DNA from: a virus
DNA: 64,000 nucleotides
Direction: 5' to 3' (one strand)
IMG/VR virus record: IMGVR_UViG_3300025030_000095
Coordinates: 1-64,000 of that record
Positions 5,090 through 38,754 of the stretch are shown one piece after another; the stretch's first letter is position 1, and the number at the start of each line of letters is the position of its first letter. The notes beneath the pieces were generated by a model, which was not told the DNA's origin, made no database searches, and saw only the letters and a list, made by a program, of their open reading frames with translations. The position numbers and the translations under genes are program-made.

Positions 5090-6010
5090 TTATTTTTCCT
5101 CCCTCCCCACCCAATCATCATGACAAACATTTTCATCACCTAAAACTAGAGCCCTGTGACAATTGGCGCAAAACTCTGCCACTCTCGACCATGGCTTACC
5201 TGACAGACCAGAGAACTCCGGCAGACTCACGCTGTGTCTGAGTTGATACGACCCGACGAATAACTTTATCTGCTCATCGCTTGGATTATCTAACCATAGC
5301 TTAAGGTTAAACCTACGCTCTAACGCGCTGTCGATCGATTCTGGTAAGTTAGTGGCTCCGATGATTATAGTTCCATCGGGAATACGGTCTAAGTTGGTTA
5401 ACAGGCTATTGACGATGGAGTTACGCTCCTTATCTGCCGCCTCCGTACCTATGATTCTCTGTCCACCAAGACAATCCAACTCATCTAGAAAAACCAAGCA
5501 ATTATTAAACTGAGCATATTCGAAGATCCTACCCAATCTAGATGCGGTTTCTCCTAAATGCCCCTCAATCGTTTTGTGAAGCTTAATTGAGAGAAAAGGT
5601 AGTCCGAGTTCCTTGACCAACGCCTCGGCCAGTGATGTTTTTCCATTCCCCGGCGGCCCGGCGAGTAGGATTCTATTTCGTGGTGATAATCCTGCGTCCT
5701 TAAGTGCTTCCGTATTCACCCTCTCAAGGATGAATGACTGGACGGCACCGGATACTGACGGTTCGAGATATAACTCATCGAGGGAAAACTTAGGCTCCTC
5801 TGCCCATACAAGGTTCTGGACATTACTTGGTAATTCAACTGGCTTAGTATCTGTCCAGTTACGCAGGGAGTATTCGAGCTGTTTTGCCCCTCGCTCTCTC
5901 CCTGCTTGGCGCTCCTGTTCGACCATTTTTTCGACTGATGCTCTTGCGCGGATATACTCTTTAGCGCCAATCATTTGAACTAAGTAGGCGATGTCGTCTA
6001 TTTTTGACAC
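5090..6010 (-). CDS. AAA+ ATPase with zinc-binding C-terminus
   Basis: 306 residues from GTG with AAGGAG 8 bases upstream. Helical N-terminus, then a classical AAA core: Walker A GPPGNGKT at 118-125, Walker B LVFLDELD near 172-179, sensor-1 GATNLP and an arginine-finger-like ALERRF. This is the FtsH/ClpX-like chaperone ATPase family rather than a helicase loader. The C-terminus ends in C-x2-C-x9-C-H instead of the usual lid helices, suggesting a zinc tail. Adjacent to antirepressor genes. Likely remodels a protein or DNA complex; substrate unknown. Confidence 0.8.
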   Translation of the reverse strand: MSKIDDIAYLVQMIGAKEYIRARASVEKMVEQERQAGRERGAKQLEYSLRNWTDTKPVELPSNVQNLVWAEEPKFSLDELYLEPSVSGAVQSFILERVNTEALKDAGLSPRNRILLAGPPGNGKTSLAEALVKELGLPFLSIKLHKTIEGHLGETASRLGRIFEYAQFNNCLVFLDELDCLGGQRIIGTEAADKERNSIVNSLLTNLDRIPDGTIIIGATNLPESIDSALERRFNLKLWLDNPSDEQIKLFVGSYQLRHSVSLPEFSGLSGKPWSRVAEFCANCHRALVLGDENVCHDDWVGREEK

Positions 6011-6022
6011 GGTATCAACTCC

Positions 6023-6847
6023 TTAACTCCCCATCCTTACAAACACAGCCCTAGTCACGTTATTTTTACCAATCCTAAAGTGCTTTGTGTAATGCCTATT
6101 TCCCTTCTCTAAGATTCCGGCTCTACATAACGATGCCAACGACCTTATGCGATGTAATCCCCTTGCGTCTAACTCGCGATAAACTTGGTCCCTGTTCAAC
6201 GCATACGATCCTCCTCCGAAATCTCGATGCACCCAACCGTTGGTGATTACAGCGTGGATGGCTTCGAGGATTAAGGTTAGGTCGATATTGTATTTACCTG
6301 TCGAGATCATGACTGATGGAGCGGGTTGGAATTCGCTGAGATCGACGTTGTATTCGAGTTCTGTGATTTCGATGGCCTTTAATCTAGCTTGGTGCAACGG
6401 CATTCCCAGTGCGACGGCTATGTCGATACTGGCCTTGAGGGATTTGGCAATTTTAGAGAGATTGGGTTGCGATAGTGATTTGCGACTTGATTCAGACTCG
6501 ACCGAATAAGATCCTGTTTTACGGATGGAGGGAATAACATCATTGAAAACCCATTTTTCAAATACTTCAGCATTAGCCTTGATCTCTTCATTTTTACTTT
6601 GATCCGCCGCTTTAATAATCAGACGATAGATGTCTCCCTCGAAAATAATGTTAGTTTCTTGAATTCCGCCTTCTGAAGGTATCCCTAACTTACGGATACC
6701 TTTGCAATGATCTATTACCGCTTGACTTGGTTTTGCATAACCAAGTGCTTTGGTAATATCTAAGCCGACCGCACCTGGTTTCCCATCAACTTCTACCCAG
6801 CGAACTTCACCAAATAGTGGATGATTAAAAATCTGTAGGTCATTCAT
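6023..6847 (-). CDS. BRO-N domain antirepressor-type protein
   Basis: 274 residues from the ATG at 6847 (GAGGTGG upstream; a start 39 bases earlier lacks one). Residues about 1-110 match the BRO family N-terminal domain: I-F-x-H-P-x-F-G-x-V-R, the D-I-x-K-A-L-G-Y core and F-E-K-W-V-x-x-x-V-I-P-x-I-R. The C-terminal half is a different, probably DNA-binding domain. BRO proteins act as phage antirepressors or DNA-binding regulators. Downstream of a P22-type antirepressor, so two antirepressor folds are encoded in tandem. Confidence 0.82.
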   Translation of the reverse strand: MNDLQIFNHPLFGEVRWVEVDGKPGAVGLDITKALGYAKPSQAVIDHCKGIRKLGIPSEGGIQETNIIFEGDIYRLIIKAADQSKNEEIKANAEVFEKWVFNDVIPSIRKTGSYSVESESSRKSLSQPNLSKIAKSLKASIDIAVALGMPLHQARLKAIEITELEYNVDLSEFQPAPSVMISTGKYNIDLTLILEAIHAVITNGWVHRDFGGGSYALNRDQVYRELDARGLHRIRSLASLCRAGILEKGNRHYTKHFRIGKNNVTRAVFVRMGS

Positions 6848-35379: not shown

Positions 35380-35925
35380 ATGGAAATTACTTTAGAAAAC
35401 AAAAAGGAGATACTAGTCTTTTTAAACAAGGGCCTTTGCCCCATATGCGGAAAAGGCCCTTACAAAAACCCTCTACTGCACATCTGGAAGCAACATGATA
35501 TATCATCGCGTGAAATACGAGATATCCTACTAATTACAACTAGAGATACTTTTTGTTCTCCTGGGTTAAGAGAAATCATGAGTAATAAAGCGAAAGAATC
35601 AGATTCCCACTTAATTGCAAATTCCGCCACAAGAGGAAAGAATTTTAAAAAGGAGCATAACCTAGTTCAAGAATCACGCATTAAGAATGATACTGAATAC
35701 AAAGGTAAATACATGGTTTACTTACGTGAAGGTGCTAAAAAAGCAGCGGAAAGTAATAAAAAGCCAGTTTACAAGATTTTACCTGATGGAGAAAAAATTA
35801 GGTACAGCAGCATTACTGAAGCTGCTCAAGCCAATAGCGTAGATAAAGATTCTATCATCAACTGCCTAAAAGGAAGAACAAGGACATGCATTGGGTGTAA
35901 ATGGATTTATGAGTCCGTGCAATAA
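35380..35925 (+). CDS. zinc-finger protein with NUMOD1/IENR1-like domain
   Basis: 181 residues. N-terminal C-P-I-C-G...H-x4-H finger (C21-C24, H34, H39). C-terminal Y-S-S-I-T-E-A-A-Q-A-N-S-V-D-K-D-S-I-I-N-C-L then C-K-W-I-Y is the NUMOD1/IENR1 DNA-binding repeat normally attached to HNH or GIY-YIG homing endonucleases. No nuclease domain is present, so it is either a degenerate homing endonuclease or a stand-alone DNA-binding protein. Confidence 0.65.
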   Translation: MEITLENKKEILVFLNKGLCPICGKGPYKNPLLHIWKQHDISSREIRDILLITTRDTFCSPGLREIMSNKAKESDSHLIANSATRGKNFKKEHNLVQESRIKNDTEYKGKYMVYLREGAKKAAESNKKPVYKILPDGEKIRYSSITEAAQANSVDKDSIINCLKGRTRTCIGCKWIYESVQ

Positions 35926-36661: not shown

Positions 36662-36693
36662 GGAAATTAAGTAATCTCCATGCCAAACGCAAA

Positions 36694-36724
36694 AAAGCCC
36701 CGAACCATTACGGCCCGGGGCTTT
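36694..36724. terminator. bidirectional terminator at convergent junction
   Basis: AAAGCCCCG (36694-36702) pairs with CGGGGCTTT (36716-36724), A/T-rich on both outer sides. It separates the plus-strand accessory operon from the minus-strand late operon, which ends with a holin-like gene. Confidence 0.88.
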
Positions 36725-36733
36725 CGTCGTGCT

Positions 36734-36934
36734 CTACTTAATATTCTGCTCCGCCTTAACCCTTCCATAGATCGCCAACAATCCACCTATGGCAGTGCCG
36801 GTCACAACAGCCAACTCCGCGATCTGATCCTGCGTATCCGCATTAACTGCGATGCCACACGCGCCGGCAATGGCTGAGCCTACCGCGATTAGTCCCCCCC
36901 ATATGGCTTTGGATTTGTACCATTCTTTTGGCAT
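36734..36934 (-). CDS. holin-like small membrane protein
   Basis: 66 residues: M-P-K-E-W-Y-K-S-K then two hydrophobic segments (about 12-32 and 42-58) joined by a short acidic loop, and a charged C-terminus. This fits short two-helix holins. Last gene of the late operon, beside the Acb2-like gene and about 1.3 kb from the larger holin and amidase. Could be holin or antiholin. Confidence 0.6.
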   Translation of the reverse strand: MPKEWYKSKAIWGGLIAVGSAIAGACGIAVNADTQDQIAELAVVTGTAIGGLLAIYGRVKAEQNIK

Positions 36935-36959
36935 TTGATTATGCTCCTTTCGCTTTGGC

Positions 36960-37169
36960 TTATTCGCTCCTGGCTATTCCTGCATTAGTCCACATAACCG
37001 CTTCCTCAATCTTGGTTATGGCTAGCGATTTTTCTCTTGAATCAGGACATAGGATATCAATTATTTCAACGAAGGCTTTACCCATGTCCCTGATTTCCTC
37101 GAACTTTTGTACTTGACCACCCTTTGGGGCGTGATGGGTAAAACGTTTAGCCAGTTCTTTTTCATCCAC
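36960..37169 (-). CDS. Acb2/Tad1-hairpin-type cyclic nucleotide sponge
   Basis: 69 residues from GTG 37169 (AAAGGA 9-10 bases upstream). F-T-H-H-A-P-K-G-G-Q ... E-I-R-D-M-G-K-A-F-V-E-I-I-D-I-L-C-P-D-S-R-E-K-S-L-A-I-T-K-I-E-E-A-V-M-W-x-N-A-x-I-A-R is the hairpin domain of Acb2 (anti-CBASS) and Tad1-related proteins, which soak up cyclic oligonucleotides or gcADPR to block CBASS or Thoeris. Located after the lysis genes. Ligand not predictable from sequence; anti-defence role inferred from the family. Confidence 0.8.
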   Translation of the reverse strand: MDEKELAKRFTHHAPKGGQVQKFEEIRDMGKAFVEIIDILCPDSREKSLAITKIEEAVMWTNAGIARSE

Positions 37170-37223
37170 ATTGATCATTCCTTTCGTTTTGGCAAGCGAT
37201 TGCGAATTTACCATTTGTACAGA

Positions 37224-37267
37224 AAATATTCCAAAAAATATTCCCTTTTTTCGGTTAAAAATATTCC
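37224..37267 (-). promoter_or_regulatory. three GGAATATTT direct repeats upstream of Acb2-like gene
   Basis: AAATATTCC (GGAATATTT on the minus strand) at 37224-37232, 37236-37244 and 37259-37267, spaced 12 and 23 bp. AT-rich gap between the small membrane gene and the Acb2-like gene, with a possible weak promoter further up. Candidate operator set giving this gene separate control. Confidence 0.45.
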
Positions 37268-37344: not shown

Positions 37345-37494
37345 TTAATAAAAATATTTCCCTCTCGATAATTTGTGGATCATCCATGTGAGCGGGCGCG
37401 AGGCGATGGCGAGTGCTATAACTGCCCAAAATAATATGCAAGTCATTATTCCGTCATCCCTAATGCTTGGGATAAAATCTCGCAAAGAAAACAT
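37345..37494 (-). CDS. 49-residue membrane protein between amidase and Acb2-like gene
   Basis: ATG 37494 with AAGGG; one hydrophobic helix (T-C-I-L-F-W-A-V-I-A-L-A-I-A) and a basic tail (R-G-K-Y-F-Y). Located just after the endolysin; lysis accessory is possible. Not recognised. Confidence 0.5.
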   Translation of the reverse strand: MFSLRDFIPSIRDDGIMTCILFWAVIALAIASRPLTWMIHKLSRGKYFY

Positions 37495-37508: not shown

Positions 37509-38249
37509 TTACCCCAAATACTTTCCAACCACTGCAGCCGTATCAAACTTCGTCTTCCCCGACAGTAAAACCTCGTTCGCGTGCTCAGCGGTTGATCCTC
37601 CCACAACAATCAACCGCTTCGCCGCCATGGCATCCTTCGGCACTGACTTATCCACCCCCCGCACAAACACTGCGCAGTTACCGTTCTTGGCAGCTACATC
37701 TGCTCCTGCCCAATAGTCTTCCTTTGTGTTTAATAAAACTGCTACCTCCAACACGTCGCCATCCCCTTTCAAATCTCTAAATAATCTGTCCCACGGAAAC
37801 CCTGAACCAGGGCAGTTGGGACGGTTAACACTATCAACCCGGTAGTGCCCGATGATATGGTCTCTGTCTATCGGTATTCCGTATTTCCTAATCAGATCCT
37901 TGTGCAGCCAAAGCGTTGCTTGGTATTGCTCCTCTGTAAGCTCTTCCCCAGGCTGCCCCTCATGCTCTATACCGATGGTATACCTGTTTGGATTCGTACC
38001 ATCATATAGGCTCCAATTAGGCCTGTTTACTATCCCGGCATGCCACGCCGTGTCACCTTCCCTGACGAGTTGATCTATCGTTCCAGCTCTTGAAACAACA
38101 TAGTGAGCGCTGGCTTTAGATGCTGTATTTTGCATCCACTCCCTGCATCCTGGATAAGCTCCTGCGGTGATGTGGTCCACGATGGCAATTACCTTTCTAC
38201 CTGCCCTGCCAGCACTAAAGTTTAGCGATGGTTCCCAGTCTATGTACAT
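37509..38249 (-). CDS. N-acetylmuramoyl-L-alanine amidase endolysin
   Basis: 246 residues. N-terminal Amidase_2 domain with zinc ligands H26, H135 and C146 (T7-lysozyme-like His-His-Cys), W-H-A-G and the I-G-I-E-H-E-G core. The C-terminal ~80 residues resemble the CW_binding_2-type wall-binding repeat (V-F-V-R-G-V-D-K-S ... V-V-G-G-S). Cleaves peptide from glycan in host wall during lysis. Holin gene lies two bases upstream. Confidence 0.93.
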   Translation of the reverse strand: MYIDWEPSLNFSAGRAGRKVIAIVDHITAGAYPGCREWMQNTASKASAHYVVSRAGTIDQLVREGDTAWHAGIVNRPNWSLYDGTNPNRYTIGIEHEGQPGEELTEEQYQATLWLHKDLIRKYGIPIDRDHIIGHYRVDSVNRPNCPGSGFPWDRLFRDLKGDGDVLEVAVLLNTKEDYWAGADVAAKNGNCAVFVRGVDKSVPKDAMAAKRLIVVGGSTAEHANEVLLSGKTKFDTAAVVGKYLG

Positions 38250-38251
38250 TT

Positions 38252-38650
38252 CTAATCCCCCTTCTCCTCCGTCTTACTCTTCAACTTATCTAAAGCCTGG
38301 AAAAACTGTTTCGGTATAGGTATCCCAATATGTCCTGCATTCTCAAGGATAGATATTGTCTCGTTCGTAATCAGGCTATAAATGATTGTATTGCGCATAA
38401 AATCATTTCCGCCGATAAGGAAGTCTATTTTTTCAGCGACCACCACAAGTGAGATCAAGGCGAGCTTTTTGACTATTCCGCGCAAACCTTTTTGACTACT
38501 GAGCTCTTTGTTTATCCATGCTTTTGCTAACCCTGTGGAATAGTCGATAACGATGAAGATAACTAAAATCTGGACTAGAGCATCGAAACCTCCGATAAGC
38601 CATGAGACGAATGCCCCTATAGCGACTAAATAACCCCAATAATCACTCAT
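38252..38650 (-). CDS. phage holin (holin_4/TcdE-type)
   Basis: 132 residues from ATG 38650 (AAAGGATGG upstream). Three hydrophobic segments and the central D-Y-S-T-G-L-A-K-A-W ... S-S-Q-K-G-L-R-G-I-V-K-K motif that marks the phi-CTX/TcdE holin_4 family. Forms the membrane lesion that releases the amidase encoded next. Confidence 0.85.
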   Translation of the reverse strand: MSDYWGYLVAIGAFVSWLIGGFDALVQILVIFIVIDYSTGLAKAWINKELSSQKGLRGIVKKLALISLVVVAEKIDFLIGGNDFMRNTIIYSLITNETISILENAGHIGIPIPKQFFQALDKLKSKTEEKGD

Positions 38651-38723
38651 CTTTCGCCATCCTTTCATGAAACCCATAAAAAATAATCGCCAACGTTGGC
38701 GATTAAAAATAAACTGCAATACG

Positions 38724-38754
38724 AAAGACGCCAAAGTTATACTCCGGCGTCTTT
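38724..38754. terminator. terminator bounding the accessory unit
   Basis: AAAGACGCC (38725-38733) pairs with GGCGTCTTT (38746-38754), followed by T on the plus strand and by T on the minus strand. It overlaps the stop of the 75-residue gene and separates it from the holin. Confidence 0.85.

Follow-up and report, generated by a model that had tools for sequence, protein, structure and literature searches.

The window analysed here, a stretch of 64,000 bases, makes up most of a 65,110-base IMG/VR virus record that encodes an HK97-type portal and capsid, a serine recombinase, FtsK-like and replication-relaxation proteins, a holin and an amidase, and it comes from a tailed phage that is probably temperate. 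Matches to ClpP and to the acb2-like gene described below point to Bacillota, and the host is probably a Gram-positive bacterium; a megablast search of window positions 37000-61900 against named phages returned no relatives. The late genes occupy the minus strand as far as about 36.7 kb, where they meet a convergent plus-strand block. In minus-strand order they run from a holin (38252-38734; PF05105, E 2.7e-37) through an endolysin of the N-acetylmuramoyl-L-alanine amidase type (37509-38249; PF01510, E 6.7e-29), a 49-aa ORF (37345-37494), with no match in Pfam or PHROG, the acb2-like gene (36960-37169, 69 aa) and a 66-aa holin-like gene (36734-36934; PHROG 34682 holin, E 1.8e-7) to an intrinsic terminator (36693-36725, also minus strand) with a 15-pair stem and a T run, which closes the late operon. 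The acb2-like gene thus lies beside the lysis genes, as the initial annotation had stated, and nearly at the end of the late operon; it is second-last, with the 66-aa gene before the terminator. In the convergent block, a plus-strand gene (35380-35925) probably encodes a homing endonuclease of the HNH type; its NUMOD-like domain has E 4.6e-6, narrowly missing the Pfam cut-off. Outside the late region, at 5090-6010 on the minus strand, there is an AAA ATPase resembling the NCBIfam model of the anti-phage ATPase IteA (E 3.4e-44, far under the NCBIfam cut-off).

The ORF at 36960-37169 is present on the minus strand and contains the motif R-E-K-S-L-A-I-T-K-I-E-E-A-V-M-W exactly as first quoted. 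Its longest reading begins at an ATG at 37214 and would give 84 aa, with the Shine-Dalgarno sequence AAAGGA (37179-37184, minus strand) downstream of that ATG. The end of AAAGGA is nine bases from a GTG at 37169. In the related locus L080, the same leader is found with an ATG at a distance equal to that of this GTG, and many homologs start with Met-Asp at the residue aligned with it. Because of these three observations, 36960-37169 is the best call for the gene and GTG 37169 is its likely start.

The amidase and the 66-aa holin-like gene form the upstream and downstream edges of a slot. In L064, L066 and L075-L077 the 66-aa gene is retained downstream of the amidase. In L064, whose amidase is 85% identical, about 0.6 kb with other small ORFs separates the two conserved genes, and in L066 and L076/L077 no cargo ORF lies between them. 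L075, L078 and L080 carry differing small genes behind the amidase, one of them with a DUF6527 domain. Within the DNA examined, none of 42 amidase relatives has acb2 in this slot, and a conserved role of the gene in the lysis operon is rejected on these grounds; L083 alone has an acb2 relative in the neighbourhood, outside the slot. Because the slot is empty or filled with other genes in the relatives, acb2 is accessory cargo in a variable slot. The small genes that related phages carry there could be screened for counter-defence.

The 167 bases from the 49-aa ORF to position 37178 hold three exact copies of GGAATATTTT (37222-37267, minus strand; starts at 37222, 37234 and 37257), spanning 46 bp. 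Three copies of any 10-mer occurred in none of 300 local dinucleotide shuffles, so the repeat-bearing upstream region noted at the outset is real, and the array appears operator- or promoter-like. Nearer the gene, at 37179-37206 on the minus strand, lies a leader recognized from its repeat family and from relatives, in which the imperfect palindrome TTCGCAATCGCTTGCC is followed by AAAACGAAAGGA. The GCCAAARCGAAAGGA part of this leader recurs before the 66-aa gene, where a second copy of the leader and ribosome site, GCCAAAGCGAAAGGA, occupies 36945-36959 (minus strand). Versions of the whole leader precede other cargo genes in L064, L075, L078 and L080; the full palindrome in the relatives is GGCAAGCGCTTGCC, followed after about four bases by GAAAGGA. 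The common leader might serve as an operator or as an anchor for recombination, and these sequences suggest that leader-plus-gene units may be exchangeable. Searching IMG/VR for the leader motif turned up five stretches: the L064 and L078 contigs account for two, and the remaining three are distant from any amidase and appear to be chance occurrences.

Repeated GTATACC/GGTATAC sites are present in the slot of L075 (about 6370-6425) and of L077 (about 6430-6475), and in L077 a promoter-like TTGGTA-17-TATACT lies among these repeats and overlaps them; at the corresponding place the window has its GGAATATTTT repeats. GGTATAC, repeated in the slot of some relatives, shows no enrichment in the window record. 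Separate expression of acb2, as had been proposed, is plausible in view of the 167-base gap, the repeats and the leader. However, a consensus scan on the right strand found no convincing sigma-70 promoter, and no terminator was found between the amidase and acb2, so that expression by read-through is equally likely.

The acb2 protein matches all 58 positions of Pfam PF24729 (Acb2/Tad1 hairpin) with 72.5 bits (E 3.2e-20) against a curated cut-off of 27 bits, and it matches PHROG 1454 (function unknown) with E 1.3e-23; both scores put the quoted motif well outside what chance would produce. The PF24729 model gives 70.3 bits for phage T4 Vs.4 and 65.3 bits for the PaP2 homolog, in each case above its cut-off; NCBIfam and PADLOC gave no match for acb2. 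The closest solved sequence is "Acb2 homolog 43" (PDB 9ptq, an entry with six chains), which a profile built from 51 homologs detects with E 2.4e-11. The AlphaFold2 model, predicted as a monomer from the 51-sequence alignment, has a mean pLDDT of 94.3 and consists of helices only (residues 5-11, 21-42 and 47-69), arranged as a short N-terminal helix and a two-helix hairpin. The best Foldseek match is T4 Acb2 (Vs.4) with cGAMP (probability 0.99), followed by Tad1. No match reached E <= 0.001 (best 0.25), as may be expected of a helical hairpin of 71 residues. The membership in the Acb2/Tad1-hairpin family that was initially claimed therefore stands, and the assignment of the window protein to the Acb2 type, as a member of a known family, is well supported.

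A scan by motif patterns, which is biased to motif-keeping sequences, located relatives at 55 viral-contig loci and 7 bacterial genome loci. More than 300 phage records, mainly of Mycobacterium, Paenibacillus and Gordonia phages, contain an acb2 relative. Most of these homologs are labelled hypothetical and some "phosphomannomutase", a label that on Acb2-family genes of Paenibacillus phages, such as Heath (HEATH_54), PBL1c and Vegas, looks like a propagated misannotation. Actinophage genes have already been annotated as Acb2 or cyclic-oligonucleotide sequestering proteins, antagonists of CBASS (PMC11953737, PMC13348362). One relative, L047 (6001-6192), keeps the N-terminal FTHHAPKGDQ; its second helix is divergent (PSADQTAALRKLRECVMTSN), without the REKSLAITK motif.

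Ligand-site residues were compared in a joint alignment of the acb2 protein with the fetched T4 Vs.4 and PaP2 gp26 sequences and the homologs. T4 Thr68, whose mutation T68M is reported to lower binding (PMC12657230), corresponds to Thr52 and is near-invariant among 51 homologs. PaP2 Arg67 and Thr74 align with Arg45 and Thr52, and PaP2 Lys26 aligns with Arg27, at a position that is near-invariant in the family. T4 Tyr8 and PaP2 Tyr11 align with His12, and T4 Phe82 aligns with an Ala; in T4 Acb2, Y8A disrupts cyclic-dinucleotide binding and Phe82 stacks on the dinucleotide (PMC12657218). In this alignment the window protein retains one experimentally examined T4 residue and differs at two positions that stack on the dinucleotide. 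Taken alone, the T4 N-terminal alignment is weak (2.7 bits), so equating His12 with Tyr8 relies on the joint alignment together with the shared fold. Across 53 aligned sequences, window included, the Tyr8 column has 34 Tyr, 8 Phe and 7 His, and the alignment identifies His as a recurrent family variant.

Histidine is able to stack, and Acb2 homolog 43 likewise has no Tyr at the T4 Tyr8 position, Thr being aligned there. Because of this, His12 would limit the dinucleotide claim rather than membership in Acb2, the Tyr being characteristic of the dinucleotide pocket and not shared by all members of the family. With His in place of the stacking Tyr8, dinucleotides are possible but uncertain ligands; trinucleotides such as cA3 are likelier and the safer guess, because the shared hairpin motif is intact. 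This putative preference would rest on the changed stacking positions together with the trinucleotide site of Acb2, which is separate, lies at trimer interfaces and is similar to that of Tad1 (PMC12043709). The natural Tyr-to-His change at a dinucleotide-stacking site makes the ligand preference directly testable.

Family and fold together predict a CBASS-directed cyclic-nucleotide sponge, and this is the well-supported best reading of the gene. More specifically, the gene would encode a minimal Acb2-type sponge for cyclic oligonucleotides, carried as accessory cargo in the variable slot of the lysis cassette, a reading to which we give a probability of about 0.8. It is improbable that the hairpin is a scaffold with some role other than counter-defence, either as a binder of some signalling nucleotide of phage or host or as a structural part. 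The two altered T4 dinucleotide-stacking positions are compatible with such a role, as are the widely varying contexts of homologs, which lie near the portal, the replication region, HicAB or a lysis gene; in named phages the neighbours are a serine recombinase and HicAB (Lily), SSB and a DNA polymerase region (Heath), a sigma factor and HicAB (Bob), or the portal and an RNA ligase (Chidiebere). However, the near-invariance of the Thr68 equivalent and of the Arg/Lys position argues against it, and the patchy distribution of the gene among related phages is what would be expected of accessory rather than structural genes. A Tad1-like anti-Thoeris protein that sequesters gcADPR is decidedly improbable. 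The C-terminal motif SREKSLAITKIEEAVMW matches the Tad1 hairpin SRENACALTHVEEALMW, and Tad1 chains are among the matches of both the sequence and the fold searches, but in Tad1 it is an N-terminal beta-sheet domain, ahead of the helices, whose loops line the gcADPR pocket (PMC12043709), and the 69-aa hairpin-only protein, as modelled, has no such domain. A Tad1 assignment is rejected on account of this absence; of the sponge activity against CBASS or Thoeris proposed in the initial annotation, the CBASS half is favoured by family and fold, and the gcADPR/Thoeris half is unsupported because the domain is missing. The chance that the gene is a broken or non-expressed relic is very slim: the consensus scan found no strong promoter and His occupies the Tyr8 position, but the frame is intact, PF24729 is matched end to end, the Shine-Dalgarno sequence and leader are in place, and the same His recurs in 7 of the 53 aligned sequences.

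Under the reading as an Acb2-type sponge, the protein, with its short helix and hairpin, probably forms a hexamer, which would bind, without cutting, cyclic oligonucleotides made by CBASS or by another cyclic-oligonucleotide defence. A suicide effector of the host would be kept off during phage growth, as a proposed consequence of the sequestration of CBASS cyclic oligonucleotides. A more elaborate version, in which the short REKSLAITK branch with His is tuned to trinucleotides or an unlisted signal over dinucleotides and is expressed from a dedicated, repeat-controlled leader within a modular slot, is doubtful. If it is true, a trinucleotide-tuned sponge would also avoid tripping Panoptes-type guards.

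The leader has a parallel in the SAS/ESAS elements of cluster K mycobacteriophages, short sequences that lie at the translation starts of genes from different families and have an inverted repeat immediately before them (PMC3203893). The layout is similar and the sequence unrelated; unlike SAS/ESAS, leaders of the window type are restricted to a single cargo slot, downstream of the amidase, in a small number of related phages. Among the proteins, Tad1 (PDB 7uav, 8kbb) shares the C-terminal hairpin motif, whereas the window protein, lacking the N-terminal domain, has no Tad1-type gcADPR pocket. The Acb2 homolog of Pseudomonas phage PaP2 (gp26 in NC_005884) belongs to PF24729 and has Arg67, Thr74 and Lys26 at the three aligned positions given above, but it has Tyr11 in place of His and a long inter-helix insertion. 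T4 Acb2 (Vs.4; PDB 7uq2), the top structural match, has the same short N-terminal helix and two-helix hairpin, belongs to PF24729 and shares Thr68 and a Lys/Arg in the first long helix. It differs in its length of 88 aa, with an insertion between the long helices that the window protein lacks, in having Tyr8 and Phe82 where the window protein has His and Ala, and in its location in the vs region rather than in a late-operon slot. Acb2 homolog 43 is alike in its compact 76-aa chain and its REKS..TKLEEA motif. With this gene, a family characterized mainly in T4-like and Pseudomonas phages gains a short, divergent Acb2 from a Gram-positive phage lineage.
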